Assembly: GCA_029959295.1 (NCBI GenBank)
Contig: JASCOH010000005.1
Span: 186,001-250,000 of the forward strand
Direction: 5' to 3'
Source of the DNA: Flavobacteriaceae bacterium PS02334
GTDB taxonomy: Bacteria > Bacteroidota > Bacteroidia > Flavobacteriales > Flavobacteriaceae
DNA length: 64,000 nt
Below, one piece after another: positions 2,029 through 64,000 of this stretch. The translations under genes and the position numbers were made by a program. Within the stretch, counting starts at the first letter, position 1, and the number at the start of each line of letters is the position of its first letter. The notes beneath the pieces are model-generated. The model saw only the letters and a list, made by a program, of their open reading frames with translations, was not told where the DNA came from and did no database searches.

Positions 2029-2532
2029 TTAGAAACCTAAATCTTTTTTCACGTCAGCAGTCAAATCTGGACCATCAGCTAAAAGAAGAGATGAACCGTC
2101 AACTACATATTGATATCCTTTTGCTTTTCCAACTTTAGCGATAGAAGCTTTAACTTTTTCTTGAATAGGTTTCAAAAGATCTTCTTCTGTTTTTGCTAAT
2201 TCTTTTTGAGCATTTTCGCCATAGTCACGAAGTCTCTTTTGCATGTCTTGAACTTCAGCTTGACGCTCTTGGTTTACTTTCTCACCAGCAGTTTCAGCTT
2301 CAGCATCATATTTTTTGATTTTTGCTTGATATTCGTCAACCATTGTTTTGTAGTCAGCGTTGTAACCTTGTTGTTTTTTTTCAAGCTGTTTTTGTCCTTC
2401 AATCATCGCAGGCATCTTTGACATTACATCCATTACATTCACGTGAGCCATTTTAGCTTGCGCGTTCATAGTTTGGCTTGCACCGATAAATAGCATTGCG
2501 GCGATTAATAGAGATTTCAATTGTTTCATCAT
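2029..2532 (-). CDS. ompH: OmpH/Skp family periplasmic chaperone
   Basis: Probable periplasmic chaperone for unfolded outer-membrane proteins delivered to BamA. The 167 residues begin with a signal peptide (about 1-25, cleavage after NAQA). The mature part has the Skp layout: a short beta strand (AHVNVMDVM), a long Lys/Glu/Gln-rich coiled-coil hairpin (about 47-120), and a C-terminal strand region GYQYVVDGSSLLLADG. It is the second of two ompH genes lying directly downstream of bamA, the arrangement expected for outer-membrane assembly genes in this phylum. It ends just before a strong terminator. Confidence 0.93.
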   Translation of the reverse strand: MMKQLKSLLIAAMLFIGASQTMNAQAKMAHVNVMDVMSKMPAMIEGQKQLEKKQQGYNADYKTMVDEYQAKIKKYDAEAETAGEKVNQERQAEVQDMQKRLRDYGENAQKELAKTEEDLLKPIQEKVKASIAKVGKAKGYQYVVDGSSLLLADGPDLTADVKKDLGF

Positions 2533-3694: not shown

Positions 3695-6250
3695 TTAAAA
3701 CTGCTGTCCAATAATGAAATGCGTTTCCCATCCGTTTTTCTGCGTACCGCCTGGAACTGGGTCGAATCCGTGACCGAAATCGATTCCTAATAATCCAAAG
3801 GCCGGCATGAAAACTCTCAATCCAAATCCTGCAGAACGTTGCAATTGAAACGGATTATATTCTTTAAAATTGTTGTAAGCCGCTCCGCCTTCTAAAAATG
3901 TTAGTGCATAAATAGAAGCAGTGTTCGCCAATGTAATCGGATATCTCAATTCTAAAGAGAATTTGTTGTAAACCGTCGAACCATCTTGCGAAGATAATGA
4001 CTGGTTTGGATAACCTCTTAACTGGATAACTTCACGTCCATCCAAAGAATAATTCGCCAATCCATCTCCTCCAAGGAAGAATCTTTCAAACGGAACTAAA
4101 CCTCTTTCTGAATTATAAGCTCCTAAGAAACCGAATTCAGCTAAAGAACGAAGGACTAATTTACCATAAACTTTTGTATAATTATCAGCTTTGAATTTAA
4201 TTTTATAATATTCTAACCATTTGAATCGCTCTTGGTCGATTTTTGATGCATCTGGTGTACGAGTAATTACTCCATTTGTATTAGTCTCTTTTTGGTATTC
4301 TTCTCTATTTTTCAAGTTCTCATAGTCAACACCATTGAAAAGCGAATAAGGCAGTGTGAATTTTCCGGTAAGGCTGAATTCAGATCCATACATCGGGAAA
4401 ATCGGGTTCAAACCTTTGTTATTTCTGCTTATTCCAATCGTATAGGCTAAGTTTCTAGAACTTCCGTCTCCAAAGGTAAATAAATTTGTGTTATAATTAT
4501 TCAAGTCATAGTATTGAAAGCTAACTGCTTGCGATAATGTGAAATAATCATCTGGCACATTCAAACGTTTTGCATATCCAACAGAAAGCGATGTGATATT
4601 AAAACTCTTGCTTCTGTCAACGTCATTGTTTCCTGAGTATAAAAATTGCTTACTGTGTGACAATGAAGTAGAGAACTGAATTGGTTTTCTACCGCCTAAC
4701 CATGGTTCTGTGAACGATAGGCTATACGTTTGGAAATAAGAGCTTCCTTGCAATCTCAATGCTAATTTTTGTCCGTCTCCCATCGGAAGCGGTTTGTAAG
4801 CATCTTTATTGAATATATTCTTGATCGAAAAGTTGTTGAACGAAAGACCTAATGTTCCGATGAAACCGCCACCGCCATAACCTCCTTGAAGTTCGATTTG
4901 GCTAGATCCTTTTTCTACTAAATGGTATTCGATATCAACTGTTCCTGCAGCCGGGTCTACATTCAAGAATTTTGGCTCAATTGCTTCCGGATCAAAGAAT
5001 CCAAGCTGTCCGATCTCACGGACTGTTCTTACCAATTGTTCTTTGCTGTATTTTTGTCCTGGTTTTGTTCTTAGCTCGCGATAAATTACTTTATCATTTG
5101 TCTTGTCATTTCCAACAACAGAAATTTTGTTGAAATAAGCCATCGGACCTTCCATAATTCTGATTTCAAAATCAATGGTATCATTGGCGGTTCTTACTTC
5201 AACAGCATTGATTGTCGAAAATAAATAACCGTTATTTTGGTATAAATTCGTAATGTCGTCGCCGTCAGGTTTTGTCTTGTCTGCAATTCTTTTTTCTAGT
5301 AAAACACCGTTGTAAACATCACCTTTCTTGATTCCGAGCATGCTGTTCAAGCCTTGGTCAGAATAGATCGTGTTTCCTAAGAATTTGATATTACCAAAAT
5401 AATATTTGTTTCCTTCTTCTACCTTGATTTTGATGGCAATAGTGTTGTTTTTTTCTTTGTAGGCAATTGAATCCGAAACTATTCGAGCGTCTCTGTATCC
5501 TTTTTCTTTGTATTTGTTGATGATTCCGGTTAAATCTTCAGTATATTTCTCCTTAATATATTTAGAGCCTTTCCAAAAACGAAGCGGAAATTTTCTCTTG
5601 GTATTTTTCATTGCGCCACGTAGCTTGGCATCTGAGAACTTCTCGTTTCCTTCAAAAACAATACTGCTGACTTTTACTTTGCTTCCTTTGTCAATATTTA
5701 CGACCATTTTCACTTCGTTCCCGGCAGTTGTGTCAGGAATGGTGTTTATAGCAACTTTCGTATTAAAGAAACCGTCTTTTTTGTATTTGTTTTCGATGTA
5801 ATTTTTTGTAGTTGTAATTAAGTTTTCATTGACAATCTTGCCTTTTGTAAGTCCGTTGTCTTTAATTAAACCTTCTACTTTTGATTTTTTGACACCTTGA
5901 ATTTTAACTTCGCTCAGCTTTGGAAGCTCGCTAATTTGCATGTCAATATAGATGCTGTCTCCATTGATTCGATTTACATAAGTATCAATTTCACTGAATA
6001 AACCAAGTTTCCACAATTTTTTAATGGCAGCACTAATTTCTTCACCAGGAACAGTAATTTTTTGGCCTTTTTGAAGTCCAGCAAAAGTGACAACGGTTTG
6101 TTCGTTATAGCTTATTTTTCCAATTACTTTAACATCAGCTAAAATATATTGTCTTCCTTCATTGAATGGTAATCTTTCTTGGGCTTTTGCTTGAAAAATG
6201 TTTCCTAAAACTAATACGGTTAAGAATAGTTTAATGCTTTTGTCTAACAT
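3695..6250 (-). CDS. bamA: Outer membrane protein assembly factor BamA
   Basis: Core of the BAM complex, which folds and inserts outer-membrane barrels. The start used is the ATG at 6250 (MLDKSIKLFLTVLVLG), 7 bases after uppS and opening a signal peptide ending QAKAQ. An in-frame start at 6382 would overlap uppS by over 100 bases and put the signal peptide inside the protein. The 851-residue product has five POTRA-like units (beginning near ADVKVIG, LSEVKIQG, VSSIVFEGN, FGNIKFLGN and FNKISVVGN). A 16-strand-type barrel follows, with the loop 6 motif LRGYPNQ and a terminal phenylalanine (IIGQQF). Flanking uppS and ompH genes agree. Confidence 0.96.
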   Translation of the reverse strand: MLDKSIKLFLTVLVLGNIFQAKAQERLPFNEGRQYILADVKVIGKISYNEQTVVTFAGLQKGQKITVPGEEISAAIKKLWKLGLFSEIDTYVNRINGDSIYIDMQISELPKLSEVKIQGVKKSKVEGLIKDNGLTKGKIVNENLITTTKNYIENKYKKDGFFNTKVAINTIPDTTAGNEVKMVVNIDKGSKVKVSSIVFEGNEKFSDAKLRGAMKNTKRKFPLRFWKGSKYIKEKYTEDLTGIINKYKEKGYRDARIVSDSIAYKEKNNTIAIKIKVEEGNKYYFGNIKFLGNTIYSDQGLNSMLGIKKGDVYNGVLLEKRIADKTKPDGDDITNLYQNNGYLFSTINAVEVRTANDTIDFEIRIMEGPMAYFNKISVVGNDKTNDKVIYRELRTKPGQKYSKEQLVRTVREIGQLGFFDPEAIEPKFLNVDPAAGTVDIEYHLVEKGSSQIELQGGYGGGGFIGTLGLSFNNFSIKNIFNKDAYKPLPMGDGQKLALRLQGSSYFQTYSLSFTEPWLGGRKPIQFSTSLSHSKQFLYSGNNDVDRSKSFNITSLSVGYAKRLNVPDDYFTLSQAVSFQYYDLNNYNTNLFTFGDGSSRNLAYTIGISRNNKGLNPIFPMYGSEFSLTGKFTLPYSLFNGVDYENLKNREEYQKETNTNGVITRTPDASKIDQERFKWLEYYKIKFKADNYTKVYGKLVLRSLAEFGFLGAYNSERGLVPFERFFLGGDGLANYSLDGREVIQLRGYPNQSLSSQDGSTVYNKFSLELRYPITLANTASIYALTFLEGGAAYNNFKEYNPFQLQRSAGFGLRVFMPAFGLLGIDFGHGFDPVPGGTQKNGWETHFIIGQQF

Positions 6251-6257
6251 TAAAATT

Positions 6258-6998
6258 TTATTTAATTTGTTCACTTGTTTTTCCAAATCTTCGTTCTCTT
6301 TTTTGATAACTAATGATAGCCTCATATAAATCTTTTTCTCTAAAGTCAGGCCACAATACATCTGTAAAGTATAATTCCGCATAAGCTATCTGCCAAAGTA
6401 GGAAATTACTGATTCTGTGTTCGCCACTGGTTCTTATTAATAAATCTACGTCAGGTAAATTTTGCGTGTAAAGATGCTGATTAATAATTGATTCGTCAAT
6501 AGCGTCTATTGAAATTATATTATTTTTAACTTTAGTGCTTATATTCTTGATTGCAGACACAATTTCTTCCCGTGAGCCATAGCTTAGCGCAAGGGTTAAG
6601 GTCATTCTGGTGTTGTTATTTGTTTCTGAAATTACGGCAGAAAGTTCCTTTTGTGCAGATTTTGGAAGCTTTTCAAAATTTCCAATAGTATTTAGTTTTA
6701 TGTTGTTGTCCTTTAGTGTTTTAAGCTCGTTTTTTAGAGATGAAATAAGCAATTTCATTAAAGTGTCAACTTCAAGCTTCGGACGGTTCCAGTTTTCAGT
6801 AGAAAAGGCGTAAAGAGTAAGATTTTCAATCCCTAATTTTGCGCAGGTTTCAACAGTTTCCCTAACAGATTTTGTGCCATTTTCATGGCCAAAAGCTCTC
6901 AATAAACCTTTTTGTTTTGCCCAACGACCATTTCCGTCCATGATGATGGCCAGATGTTTAGGGAGGTTGTCTTTGTTTATAGTTTCTAGTAAGTTCAT
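6258..6998 (-). CDS. uppS: Isoprenyl transferase (undecaprenyl diphosphate synthase)
   Basis: Condenses isopentenyl diphosphate units into the polyprenyl carrier lipid for wall and glycan synthesis. From the ATG at 6998 the protein is 246 residues, the usual family size. This start sits 1 base after the stop of the preceding gene, whereas a start at 7031 would overlap it. Visible motifs are IIMDGNGRWA with catalytic Asp21, FGHENGT, LYAFSTENW, DLLIRTSGEHR and ELYFTDVLWPDF. It is tightly packed between the DUF6089 gene and bamA and very probably co-transcribed with them. Confidence 0.96.
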   Translation of the reverse strand: MNLLETINKDNLPKHLAIIMDGNGRWAKQKGLLRAFGHENGTKSVRETVETCAKLGIENLTLYAFSTENWNRPKLEVDTLMKLLISSLKNELKTLKDNNIKLNTIGNFEKLPKSAQKELSAVISETNNNTRMTLTLALSYGSREEIVSAIKNISTKVKNNIISIDAIDESIINQHLYTQNLPDVDLLIRTSGEHRISNFLLWQIAYAELYFTDVLWPDFREKDLYEAIISYQKRERRFGKTSEQIK

Positions 6999-60547: not shown

Positions 60548-60555
60548 TAAATTTG
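60548..60555 (+). promoter_or_regulatory. Candidate -7 element for the tandem paralog array
   Basis: TAAATTTG matches TAnnTTTG, 46 bases upstream of the ATG at 60602. It is the only clear promoter before a run of overlapping genes. Confidence 0.45.
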
Positions 60556-60601: not shown

Positions 60602-61354
60602 ATGCAAAAAATTGTACCGTTTTTTATTTTCGTCATGGCGATAACTTCATCGCAAGCGCAGACTCCTGAAAGAAAATTTCTGAAAGGAAAAGTGACTGCG
60701 CGCACTTCTGATCTGGAAGGGATTTATGTCATCAACAAAACTGCCGAGAAAGAAACCGTGACCAAAGAAGGCGGTTATTATACGATTATGGCAAAACCTG
60801 GCGATTCCTTAATGTTTGCTTCCATCGAATTCAAAGGGAAAACGGTTGCTGTAGATTCGACACATTTTGGCCAAGAAATGCTTATTACAAAATTGGAAAC
60901 CATGGTGAACCAGCTTGACGAAGTAATGGTGATTCAATACAAAGATATCAATGCCTATTCATTAGGAATTCTGACTAAAAAAGCAAAATCATATACGCCT
61001 GCGGAAAGAAAATTGCTGACTGCGACTGGCGTTGATCCAAAGATTGGCTTGAATTCTTCTTTTGGAGTTGATCCGTTGTTGAATTTATTTTCAGGAAGGA
61101 CTGCAATGCTTAAAAAGGAATTGGAGGTTGAAAAGAAAGAAAATTGGATTGATAAATTAGAAAATTTATACGACGAAAAATACTTGACAGAAAAACTTAA
61201 GATTCCTGCAGCATATATTAAAGGATTTTTGTTCTATATTGTAGAAAATGAACATTTCGTTAAAACATTGAGCGCTAAAGATAAAACTGCAAATAATTTT
61301 CTCTTGGTGCAATTGGCCGAAAAATACCTCAAAACTATAGAAAATGAAAAATAA
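60602..61354 (+). CDS. Array paralog A: secreted carboxypeptidase-regulatory-like protein
   Basis: First of at least five tandem paralogs. It is 250 residues with a signal peptide (about 1-20, ending SSQAQ). Residues about 25-100 are a beta-sandwich resembling the CarboxypepD_reg domain at the N-terminus of SusC/TonB receptors. They are followed by VNQLDEVMVIQYKDINAYSL, which looks like the first plug strand. No barrel follows. Instead a conserved tail reads YTPAERKLLTA, SGRTAMLKKELEVEKKE, YDEKYLTEKLKIPAAYIKGF and AEKYLKTIENEK. Function is unknown. The next gene starts inside the last four codons. Confidence 0.85.
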   Translation: MQKIVPFFIFVMAITSSQAQTPERKFLKGKVTARTSDLEGIYVINKTAEKETVTKEGGYYTIMAKPGDSLMFASIEFKGKTVAVDSTHFGQEMLITKLETMVNQLDEVMVIQYKDINAYSLGILTKKAKSYTPAERKLLTATGVDPKIGLNSSFGVDPLLNLFSGRTAMLKKELEVEKKENWIDKLENLYDEKYLTEKLKIPAAYIKGFLFYIVENEHFVKTLSAKDKTANNFLLVQLAEKYLKTIENEK

Positions 61355-62078
61355 TCTCTTTTTATTATTGCTGCTTATTTCTCAATTGTCTTTCTCTCAG
61401 GCGAAAGACAAGCTGATGACTGGAAAAATTAATACTTTGCAAGTGGCTCCTGATGGCGTAGAAGTCATTAATATGACAACTAAAAAAACTACAAAATCTA
61501 ATGCTTTGGGAAAATTTTCGCTTTATGCAAAAACTGGAGACGTTATCGTTTTTTCTAGTCCTAATTTTGAATATGCGAAGAAAACAATTACTTCAAGTGA
61601 ATTTTCTGCGGGAACATTTGCGGTTTCCATGATTCCAAAAGTGACCGAATTAGAAGAAGTTGTAGTTCAAAAAGATGAAAAATTAGTGCATTCAGAGCTT
61701 TTCGACAATGCAAAAGAATATACGGTTGCAGAAAGAAGATTGCAAACCGGCGCAAGAGCTACACGGTTAAATCAAGGCTTAGAAATCAGCAATGATGCCA
61801 TTATCAACGCAATTTCAGGAAAATCAAAAAGGCTTCGTAAAGAGCTGGCCATCGAGAAAAAAGAATCGTATATGGAGCAAATCGAAGATACTTATGCTGA
61901 TGACTATTACACAAAAAGCTTAGGAATCGAAAAAGATTATGTCGCTGGTTTTAAGTATTTTATTGTAGAAGATGCGGCATTTATAAAAACGCTTGAAACT
62001 AGAAATAAAATTGCAATGGATGCCACGCTTTTGGAATTGGCACAGGAATACAAACAGCTTTTAGCCAATGAGAAATAA
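61344..62078 (+). CDS. Array paralog B: secreted carboxypeptidase-regulatory-like protein
   Basis: The 244 residues have a signal peptide (ending LSFSQA) and the same layout as paralog A: beta-sandwich (GKINTLQVAPDGVEVINMTTK), plug-like strand (TELEEVVVQKDEK), then the tail with YTVAERRLQTG, ISGKSKRLRKELAIEKKE, YADDYYTKSLGIEKDYVAGF and AQEYKQLLANEK. It is the most diverged member (VQKDEKLVHSEL where others have Lys-Tyr-Asn-Ile-Asn-Ala). The start ATG overlaps the paralog A stop by 11 bases. Function is unknown. Confidence 0.83.
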   Translation: MKNNLFLLLLLISQLSFSQAKDKLMTGKINTLQVAPDGVEVINMTTKKTTKSNALGKFSLYAKTGDVIVFSSPNFEYAKKTITSSEFSAGTFAVSMIPKVTELEEVVVQKDEKLVHSELFDNAKEYTVAERRLQTGARATRLNQGLEISNDAIINAISGKSKRLRKELAIEKKESYMEQIEDTYADDYYTKSLGIEKDYVAGFKYFIVEDAAFIKTLETRNKIAMDATLLELAQEYKQLLANEK

Positions 62079-62829
62079 CTACTTTCTCATTTTCTTCATT
62101 TCTTTTAGCACTATCATTTTCTCGCAGTCAAAAGAAAAAATGATTCACGGCAAAATTATTGCGCCGATAAATAACACTTCCGGAATTAACGTAATGAATC
62201 TTGTCAACGAAAAGTCAGCATTGACGGATGCTAACGGCGAATTTTATATTTTAGCAAAAGTGGACGATCTTCTTATTTTATCTTCTGAAAATTTTGAATA
62301 TAAGAGAAAATTGATCCAAGAAGAAGATTTTGGTGCGAAAATTGTTACGATTGAAATGATTCCAAAACTAGGGCAATTGGAGGAAGTGGTAATTACAAAA
62401 TACCAAAATTTTAATGCCGTAGATTTAGGAATTCTTTCAAAACCAGCCAAAGAATATACGCCTGCAGAAAGAAGACTGAAAACTGCTGGCGATTTTAAGC
62501 CGATTCATCTTTTAGGAATTTTAGGCGGAAGCTTACCGATTGATCCAATTTTGAATGCAATTAATGGAAGGACAAAAAGGCTGAAAAAAGAAATAAGCAT
62601 TGAGAAAAGAGAATTTAGGTTGCAAGAAATAGAAGATTTATATGACAATAATTTCTATGTTCAGACTTTAAAAATACCAACAGAATATATCATGGGTTTC
62701 AAATATTTTTTAACGGAAGACGAGGATTTTGCAACTTTATTGCTTGCAAAAAACAAACCTTCGATTGAAATGCATGTGGTCAAGTCAGCAGAAGATTATC
62801 TAAAAATAATTGCTGATGAAAGGGAATAA
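62068..62829 (+). CDS. Array paralog C: secreted carboxypeptidase-regulatory-like protein
   Basis: The 253 residues have a signal peptide (ending IIFSQ) and the array layout. The sandwich reads MIHGKIIAPINNTSGINVMN, with NLVNEKSALTDANGEFYILA as in D and E. The plug-like strand is GQLEEVVITKYQNFNAVDLG; the tail has YTPAERRLKTA, INGRTKRLKKEISIEKRE, YDNNFYVQTLKIPTEYIMGF and EDYLKIIADERE. It overlaps B by 11 bases. Closest to paralog D by eye. Function is unknown. Confidence 0.84.
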   Translation: MRNNYFLIFFISFSTIIFSQSKEKMIHGKIIAPINNTSGINVMNLVNEKSALTDANGEFYILAKVDDLLILSSENFEYKRKLIQEEDFGAKIVTIEMIPKLGQLEEVVITKYQNFNAVDLGILSKPAKEYTPAERRLKTAGDFKPIHLLGILGGSLPIDPILNAINGRTKRLKKEISIEKREFRLQEIEDLYDNNFYVQTLKIPTEYIMGFKYFLTEDEDFATLLLAKNKPSIEMHVVKSAEDYLKIIADERE

Positions 62830-63562
62830 ATTAGTTTTTTTTTTCTTGCTTTTTTACGGAATTACTTTTTCCCAAGAAAAGATGATTCACGTCAAAATTA
62901 CCGCTAACGGAAATGACGCAGAAGGAATCAATGTCGTAAATCTTGTCAATGAAAAGTCTGCAAAATCAGATGCTAAAGGCGAATTTCAGATTTTGGCAAA
63001 GGCAGATGACTTGTTAGTTTTATCTTCAGAAAGATTTGAATACAAGCGAAAAATTATCAGCGAAGATGATTTGAAGTCTAAAGTAATTACAATACAAATG
63101 ACTCCGAAACCCGGACAATTAGACGAAGTTGTGATTACAAAATACAGAAATATAAATGCGGTAGATTTGGGAATTTTATCAAAACCAGCTAAAGAATATA
63201 CGCCGGCGGAAAGAAGATTGAAAACCGCTTCTTCCTATGATTTAACCGTCGGGACTTATACTTCAGTCAGTTTAGACGCCATCATAAATTCAATTTCTGG
63301 AAGAACGGCAATGCTGAAAAAAGAACTGGAAGTTGAAAGAAAAGAAATTGCAAGAGAAAGGCTTTTGTCGATTTTTGACGAAGAATATTTTACTGAAAAA
63401 TTAAAAATTCCTTCAGATTACGTCAAGGGATTCCAGTATTTTGTAGTTGAAGATGAAAAATTCAGGCAAGTTCTGAAGTCTAAAGATAAAATTGCACAGG
63501 AAATTTTGATAAATAAACTAGCCACAGATTACCTTAAAATATTGGGCGATGAAAAAAAATAA
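62816..63562 (+). CDS. Array paralog D: secreted carboxypeptidase-regulatory-like protein
   Basis: The start is the ATG at 62816 (MKGNKLVFFFLLFYGITFSQ), giving a signal peptide and 248 residues. An upstream in-frame TTG at 62810 is less likely. Layout as in C: MIHVKITANGNDAEGINVVN, GQLDEVVITKYRNINAVDLG, YTPAERRLKTA, ISGRTAMLKKELEVERKE, FDEEYFTEKLKIPSDYVKGF and TDYLKILGDEKK. Its tail is closer to A, its middle closer to C, hinting at recombination between copies. It overlaps C by 14 bases. Function is unknown. Confidence 0.84.
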   Translation: MKGNKLVFFFLLFYGITFSQEKMIHVKITANGNDAEGINVVNLVNEKSAKSDAKGEFQILAKADDLLVLSSERFEYKRKIISEDDLKSKVITIQMTPKPGQLDEVVITKYRNINAVDLGILSKPAKEYTPAERRLKTASSYDLTVGTYTSVSLDAIINSISGRTAMLKKELEVERKEIARERLLSIFDEEYFTEKLKIPSDYVKGFQYFVVEDEKFRQVLKSKDKIAQEILINKLATDYLKILGDEKK

Positions 63563-64000
63563 TCTTCTTTTTCTATTGCTGATTTTTCAGAATGCTTTTT
63601 CCCAAGAAAAAATGATTCACGGACAAATTTTCGGAATGGGAAATAGTGTCGAAGGAATTAATATTGTAAATCTTGTCAATGAAAAATCGGCAATTTCTGA
63701 TGCAAGAGGAGAATTCCATATTCTTGCAAAGCCAGATGACATGCTGATTTTTTCGGCCATGACTTTTGAATACAAACGCAGAATAATTGTGCCGGAAGAC
63801 ATGCGTTCGTCACTTTTGGTAATTTCGTTAGAGCCAAAGCCAAATCAGTTGGAAGAAGTTGTAATCACCAAATATGTGAATATAAATGCAGTGGATTTGG
63901 GAATTATAAAAAAGCATATAAAAGAGCCGACGCCAGCAGAAAGAAGATTAAATTCTGCGAGATCAGGAATTATTACGGGTTTGATTAATAGCATAAATGG
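63549..64000 (+). CDS. Array paralog E (partial, runs off the window)
   Basis: A fifth copy starts at the ATG at 63549, overlapping D by 14 bases, and is open to the last base (about 150 codons). It shows the signal peptide (ending NAFSQ), MIHGQIFGMGNSVEGINIVN, NLVNEKSAISDARGEFHILA, NQLEEVVITKYVNINAVDLG and TPAERRLNSARSG. The C-terminal tail lies outside the window. Function is unknown; more copies may follow. Confidence 0.85.
   Translation, partial: MKKNNLLFLLLIFQNAFSQEKMIHGQIFGMGNSVEGINIVNLVNEKSAISDARGEFHILAKPDDMLIFSAMTFEYKRRIIVPEDMRSSLLVISLEPKPNQLEEVVITKYVNINAVDLGIIKKHIKEPTPAERRLNSARSGIITGLINSIN

Follow-up and report, generated by a model that had tools for sequence, protein, structure and literature searches.

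BamA is essential and is an antibiotic target. According to the excerpts of PMC12611786 used here, the BamA complex of Flavobacterium johnsoniae, the β-barrel assembly machinery (BAM), contains a subunit described in 2025, BamP, which places a loop in the lateral seam of BamA; its N-terminal domain (NTD) binds BamA POTRA4/5 and the helices of its C-terminal domain (CTD) lie between POTRA1 and BamD. F. johnsoniae (bamA, Fjoh_1690; bamP, Fjoh_1771) has BamP and three homologues, and loss of all four leads to darobactin sensitivity, again according to these excerpts (PMC12611786). BamP and its homologues are thus known already, and apart from that paper our literature search, which covered sources other than subscription journals and preprints, found none treating these genes; the portions of PMC12578637 and PMC13067283 at hand do not mention BamP. 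Here we describe a tandem array of five genes whose products belong to the wider BamP family. It lies on the plus strand at the 3′ edge of a window of 64,000 nucleotides from Flavobacteriaceae bacterium PS02334 (GCA_029959295.1, JASCOH010000005.1, forward-strand positions 186,001 to 250,000; G000:C55:186001-250000). The genes are as follows, with classes T1 and T2 taken from a tree and loop types from a comparison of loop tips, both described below.

60602-61354, plus strand: gene 1, 250 residues, T1-type BamP paralog with loop type L (hand-labelled); open reading frame (ORF), profile and tree
61344-62078, plus strand: gene 2, 244 residues, T2-type BamP paralog with a loop outside the named types; ORF, profile and tree
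62068-62829, plus strand: gene 3, 253 residues, T2-type BamP paralog with loop type K; ORF, profile, tree and AlphaFold2 model
62810-63562, plus strand: gene 4, 250 residues, T2-type BamP paralog with a TTG start as listed and a loop outside the named types
63549-64000, plus strand: gene 5, cut by the window (its end is equivalent to 64271), 240 residues in the contig (L002:5550-6272), T2-type BamP paralog with a short loop of type S

Neighbouring genes overlap by 11-20 bases. The five proteins align throughout, with 31-41% identity to gene 1 and 34 invariant columns, several of them in the TPAER region, and each begins with a signal-peptide-like N-terminus ending near 'Q' ('...SQ' or '...AQ'). 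Inspection of these five N-termini revealed no lipobox cysteine, and from them we read the proteins as periplasmic. The initial annotation, made on the window, had called at least five secreted paralogs in tandem that share the tail motifs TPAER(R/K)L and SGRTxxLKKE. The paralogs and the motifs hold across the array, and the count can now be fixed at exactly five, because gene 5 is complete in the contig continuation (L002) and the next gene encodes a 165-residue DUF6702 protein. The same annotation had allowed that the genes might be pieces of one large frameshifted protein. This is ruled out: all five are full ORFs, each with its own start, stop and signal-peptide-like N-terminus, and between paralogs synonymous divergence (dS) is high while nonsynonymous divergence (dN) in the NTDs of genes 3-5 is 0.23-0.35.

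The BamP model of NCBIfam, NF053692, matched genes 1-4 at E values of 1.9e-22 to 5.6e-28, ahead of the SusC model every time (gene 1, 5.6e-28 and 98 bits; gene 2, 4.8e-23; gene 3, 1.9e-22), and gene 5 at 3.1e-28. In Pfam, genes 1-4 scored 20.2-30.5 bits with CarbopepD_reg_2, short of the 32.2 that the model requires. A phmmer search of the PDB paired gene 1 (E 8.2e-12) and gene 4 (E 3.9e-5) with 9n2d_E, the BamP chain of the F. johnsoniae BAM complex. The NTD is a carboxypeptidase-regulatory-like domain with the BamP fold, and the fold match spans residues 22-103 of 9n2d_E, whose model holds 146 residues. The CTD is helical in the models of gene 4 and gene 3 (AlphaFold2 for gene 3), and by sequence profile it is homologous to that of BamP: comparison of the two profiles gave a probability of 97.1, against 2.7 for the best of 30 column shuffles. 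VIA returned no match for the CTD helices; the domain was not queried alone, so that result is silent on their fold. Broad membership in the BamP family is therefore supported by sequence, N-terminal fold, C-terminal profile and locus.

These results redraw the earlier description of the proteins as receptor-like N-termini with no barrel, a novel tail and no described function. The first part stands, since the N-terminal fold resembles the N-terminal extension (NTE) domain of SusC and proteins of 240-253 residues, with no Pfam Plug match in genes 1-4, do not have the plug and 22-strand barrel of a receptor. The (L)(D/E)EV(V/M) motif was also correctly seen, but in the models of genes 3 and 4 it directly follows the last strand of the NTD and opens the linker; it does not mark a separate plug domain. 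The annotation had named a match of the tail to a known domain as grounds for refutation; this applies to the helices, which by profile are homologous to the BamP CTD, and not to the loop, which has no detectable match to that of BamP. The architecture as a whole is that of a described protein, the BamP of the F. johnsoniae BAM complex.

The array also occupies the bamP locus. The F. johnsoniae genome (G520) encodes a protein 100% identical to 9n2d_E. With 150 of 180 first-look candidates scored, the T profile matched this genome 26 times at E <= 1e-8, four times in a BamP-sized protein. Two T-type genes and bamP form a single overlapping tandem at 2050630-2052842, and the fourth BamP-sized gene is solitary (G520:C1:2874538). 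By elimination among these four matches, BamP2 and BamP3 are most likely the two T genes (T1 and T2) upstream of bamP, and BamP4 the solitary gene. As read from ORFs, F. johnsoniae bamP is flanked by an L,D-transpeptidase-like gene and PepE, and then by DUF6702, an M1 peptidase, TatA and PAP2, and the window array has the same flanks; PepE, DUF6702 and bamA were named by profile match. In the window contig the DUF6702 gene is followed by one for a 751-residue protein with a weak aminopeptidase N match, which we read as the M1-type peptidase, and further downstream by ORFs read as TatA-like and PAP2-like. At the same locus F. microcysteis (L029) carries five T-type genes and no bamP, and one of its loops resembles that of gene 2. 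In the F. microcysteis array, the final gene (L029:8844-9530) has lost the SGRT part of its loop region. The window genome has its top BamP-like protein (174 bits) on C33, away from the array, and a BamP4-like one on C11, flanked, as read from ORFs, by a likely DEAD-box helicase and a TrmH-type methyltransferase; no protein in this genome exceeds the NF053692 cut-off of 230.

Between the two domains lies the loop that sets these proteins apart. It has a constant part of approximately the form NAxxLGIxxKxQKxYTPAERRLxTA, a variable tip, from a few residues to about 20 in length, and then DPLLNxISGRTxMLKKE. The segments located in the window are as follows.

60929-61096, plus strand: gene 1 interdomain loop, from the LDEV motif to SGRT; alignment
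60995-61015, plus strand: gene 1 TPAERKL; alignment
62392-62565, plus strand: gene 3 interdomain loop; alignment and AlphaFold2 model
62488-62547, plus strand: gene 3 K cassette, GDFKPIHLLGILGGSLPIDP; cassette comparison
63134-63298, plus strand: gene 4 interdomain loop; alignment and model
63200-63220, plus strand: gene 4 TPAERRL; alignment

Mean pairwise identity at ungapped positions is higher in the T1/T2 loops (0.53/0.49) than in the NTD (0.40/0.37) or CTD (0.48/0.39). The canonical BamP (P) loop is about as conserved as its domains (0.48, against 0.51 and 0.49), and the loop of the Q class, that of the window genome's C33-type protein, is less so (0.25, against about 0.50). We typed the tips by explicit pattern rules, with eight rows relabelled by hand (seven as L, and L029:8823 as 'other'), in 159 T proteins drawn from 275 distinct BamP-like sequences (profile score >=130 bits, length >=205). 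They sort into recurring types, with about 25 outside the named ones. In 300 pairwise comparisons of K-type proteins, identity was 0.70 over the 20-residue tip, as compared with 0.34 for the NTD and 0.28 for the CTD; between gene 3 and a protein from another genus (L130) the tip is 0.90 identical, with 0.22 and 0.15 elsewhere.

Genus-level counts used the 121 of the 159 proteins with scores >=200, from 58 genome keys. Exactly one K tip occurs in 17 of the 19 genomes with at least two T2 genes (44 genes) and two K tips in none, a result equalled in 6 of 20,000 permutations. No named tip is repeated within the T2 set of any genome, against 8.2 repeats expected (0 of 20,000 permutations), in a count that leaves out rows outside the named types, window genes 2 and 4 among them. 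With T1 genes included, repeats do occur in two genomes: S twice in L024 and L twice in L029. These numbers are descriptive, because the permutations ignore shared ancestry, short loci leave sets incomplete, and T1 and T2 were separated by anchor distance on a FastTree tree.

Taken together, we consider it probable that all five proteins belong to BAM as accessory subunits of the BamP family in the periplasm, and that they act as alternative plugs of BamA. Both folded domains are homologous to those of BamP, the locus is shared, the NTD is under purifying selection, and the loop is conserved, different from that of BamP and fitted with recurring tip cassettes. As in BamP, the NTD sandwich would dock on BamA POTRA4/5 and the helical CTD would extend to POTRA1 and BamD, while the interdomain loop with TPAERRL would enter the BamA barrel and exit at the lateral seam. 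The array would then supply plugs that differ most plainly at the loop tip, so that one BamA could be occupied by different seam-blocking loops as conditions change. The likely benefit would be a seam guarded or tuned against seam-binding inhibitors such as darobactin; a changed resting state or substrate exchange would be another route. Binding to BamA, loop threading and the benefit are what we infer, and any claim that differing loops give BAM different states or protect it would draw on the conserved tips and the published darobactin result. The initial annotation had suggested that the proteins cap or partner a barrel, and we keep that idea with a different barrel: BamA is likelier than a TonB receptor because the architecture matches BamP and the CTD is homologous. 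The presumed partner lies 54 kb from the array within the same window.

3695-6382, minus strand: bamA, the presumed partner barrel (TIGR03303, 321.7 bits against a cut-off of 297.15)

Several observations count against this assignment. All five proteins reach just 80-99 bits against the curated NF053692 cut-off of 230, and by that standard none is BamP itself. Profile comparison of the T and P loops gave a probability of 0.1 with a different consensus, and the conserved barrel contacts of BamP are missing; as the T loop has no detectable likeness to that of BamP, identical threading cannot be assumed. In the excerpts of PMC12611786, pull-downs cover BamP and BamP4, with no T-type protein shown binding BamA, and BamP2 and BamP3 are reported not to be appreciably expressed in rich medium. 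Finally, the window genome encodes two Omp85 proteins besides BamA, and either may be the true partner.

A tree of 145 fetched sequences and 9n2d_E resolved classes T1 (27), T2 (49), canonical P (17), long P-like PL (12) and Q (35), with six of the 146 rows outside; gene 1 of the window falls in T1, genes 2-5 in T2. F. johnsoniae lacks the Q class. With a query built from the window's own five proteins, at least one T gene was found in 38 of 41 genomes of the genus (E <= 1e-40, counted by hand); the window genome has five and the others in that table three at most. Within Flavobacteriaceae the T profile matched 134 of 149 genomes at E <= 1e-20, a threshold loose enough to let in near relatives as well; at E <= 1e-30 the number, counted by hand, was 94 of 149. 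In a phylum sample it matched 27 of 247 genomes, 26 of them in Flavobacteriaceae. The lone match outside (G256:C22:26445-27191, E 6.4e-42) could reflect transfer or contamination. Canonical BamP was found at E <= 1e-60 in 117 of 398 genus genomes.

Where dS could be estimated between window paralogs it was 0.98-3.3; in genes 3-5 the NTD gave dN of 0.23-0.35 and dS of 1.2-3.3, and CTD dS was inestimable. These copies are ancient, with an NTD under purifying selection, and recent amplification or gene conversion is unsupported, dS being high or inestimable. Among genes 3, 4 and 5 the NTDs are 59-69% identical and the CTDs 23-40%, and the two halves seem to have had different histories. For the genus Flavobacterium we tentatively propose, doubtful as this fuller account is, that genomes maintain several BamA seam plugs built on one chassis with discrete cassettes at the loop tip, and that the T2 genes of each genome include one of every type. 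The POTRA-binding domain would have been reshuffled by old recombination, most clearly for K, and selection would keep the set of tips as a repertoire against inhibitors or as switchable insertase modes.

A competing account, which may well be correct although we would not call it probable, is that the cassettes are simply old ortholog groups, that the mosaic is an artefact of a poorly resolved tree of short proteins, and that loop variety is under no special selection. On a backbone tree with the loop removed (86 rows), support is weak for most inner branches (23 of 83 starred) and K requires 13 changes, against a mean of 21.8 for shuffled labels. K is thus scattered yet not random, as 0 of 500 label shuffles reach 13, and its clustering suits ortholog groups; well-supported branches alone nevertheless force at least seven changes. 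With the 121 genus genes, K is near random on the NTD tree, needing 15 changes where shuffled labels average 16.9, and less so on the CTD tree (10, against 17.0). Genes 3 and 4 carry different cassettes with 69% identity in the NTD and 37% in the CTD. The near-random NTD result and this pair speak against the ortholog-group account. Types S and N follow the trees far better (NTD tree, 15 against 37.2 and 6 against 28.4; CTD tree, 11 against 36.8 and 8 against 28.6), as ortholog groups would, and K is the main support for cassette exchange. The data do not support a recent transfer of this cassette across species: third-position identity is 0.40 in the cassette and 0.51 in the backbone, which also fits the ortholog-group account.

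It is unlikely, in our judgement, that T-type proteins plug another Omp85 barrel (TamL, TamL2 or TamA-like) with a loop changed to mirror the change of partner. The loop is unrelated to that of BamP despite homologous folded domains, the window genome has three Omp85 proteins in all, and F. johnsoniae has TamL, TamL2 and a TamA homologue, according to the part of PMC12045153 used here. On the other side, five different loops face those three proteins, and in F. johnsoniae T genes form an overlapping tandem with bamP. Of 28 loci taken from other genera as the best matches, 22 have a T gene beside one whose top-scoring profile is P, Q or PL, although in some the lead over the T score is small. 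According to the excerpts of PMC12611786, removal of bamP-P3 on top of bamP4 has an additive darobactin effect, which points to BamA, though the deletion takes BamP too. That the proteins are stand-alone SusC-type NTE modules working as partners, caps or competitors of TonB-dependent receptors is very improbable: BamP gives the better match both by sequence and by VIA, and that match extends to the CTD, the locus is that of bamP, and no receptor-like gene adjoins the array as read from ORFs.

Other features deserve mention. Upstream of gene 1, TAAATTTG at 60548-60555 resembles the Bacteroidota -7 element, whose consensus we take to be TAnnTTTG; no -33 TTG was seen by eye at the usual spacing. 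A Skp-like chaperone gene (2029-2532, minus strand; 43 bits, under its model's cut-off) shares the window with bamA. In several Flavobacterium species Q-class proteins form tandem triplets with very variable loops (L033-L043, e.g. L041:7977-10200). In Maribacter and other Flavobacteriaceae (L046:5817-13370, L044, L048) there are tandem arrays of proteins of about 600 residues with a CarbopepD_reg domain, too short for a full receptor; one of three scanned copies (L046:7998-9740) has a TonB-receptor Plug domain, and TPR matches fall below cut-off. These fit the description of a receptor N-terminus without the barrel better than the window array does. The window genome also encodes a solitary, secreted-looking protein of 150 residues that is barely more than a CarbopepD_reg domain (G000:C1:30146-30436; L011:1495-1947).

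Should T-type proteins prove to be alternative plugs, the most important surface of the insertase in Flavobacteriaceae would be covered by a small repertoire of loops instead of a single loop, and resistance to seam-binding compounds and interchangeable BAM states would become testable questions. The analysis also names genes that the curated BamP model misses, as they score far under its cut-off, and predicts the nature of BamP2 and BamP3 in F. johnsoniae, both little studied. Our literature search found no account of the T class as a family-wide type, of a five-gene array without bamP, or of tip cassettes unrepeated among the T2 genes of a genome.

Among known systems, the array is closest to BamP of F. 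johnsoniae (Fjoh_1771; 9n2d/9n2e; NF053692), with which it shares a signal peptide, a CarboxypepD_reg-like NTD, a long interdomain loop, a helical CTD, the locus and the flanking genes. It differs in its unrelated loop sequence, its scores of 80-99 bits against 230, and its five tandem copies. BamP2 and BamP3, as assigned above by elimination, match it in class (T1 and T2) and position, but F. johnsoniae has two T copies (loop types N and S) where the array has five (L, unnamed, K, unnamed, S). BamP4, likewise assigned by elimination, is BamP-like, solitary and has a different loop, and its likely counterpart in the window genome is G000:C11:703807 (L009). With the NTE domains of SusC proteins (9hfj, 6ytc) the array shares the fold of the first 80 mature residues; in contrast to SusC, no plug or barrel follows the NTD, and the remainder of each protein matches BamP.

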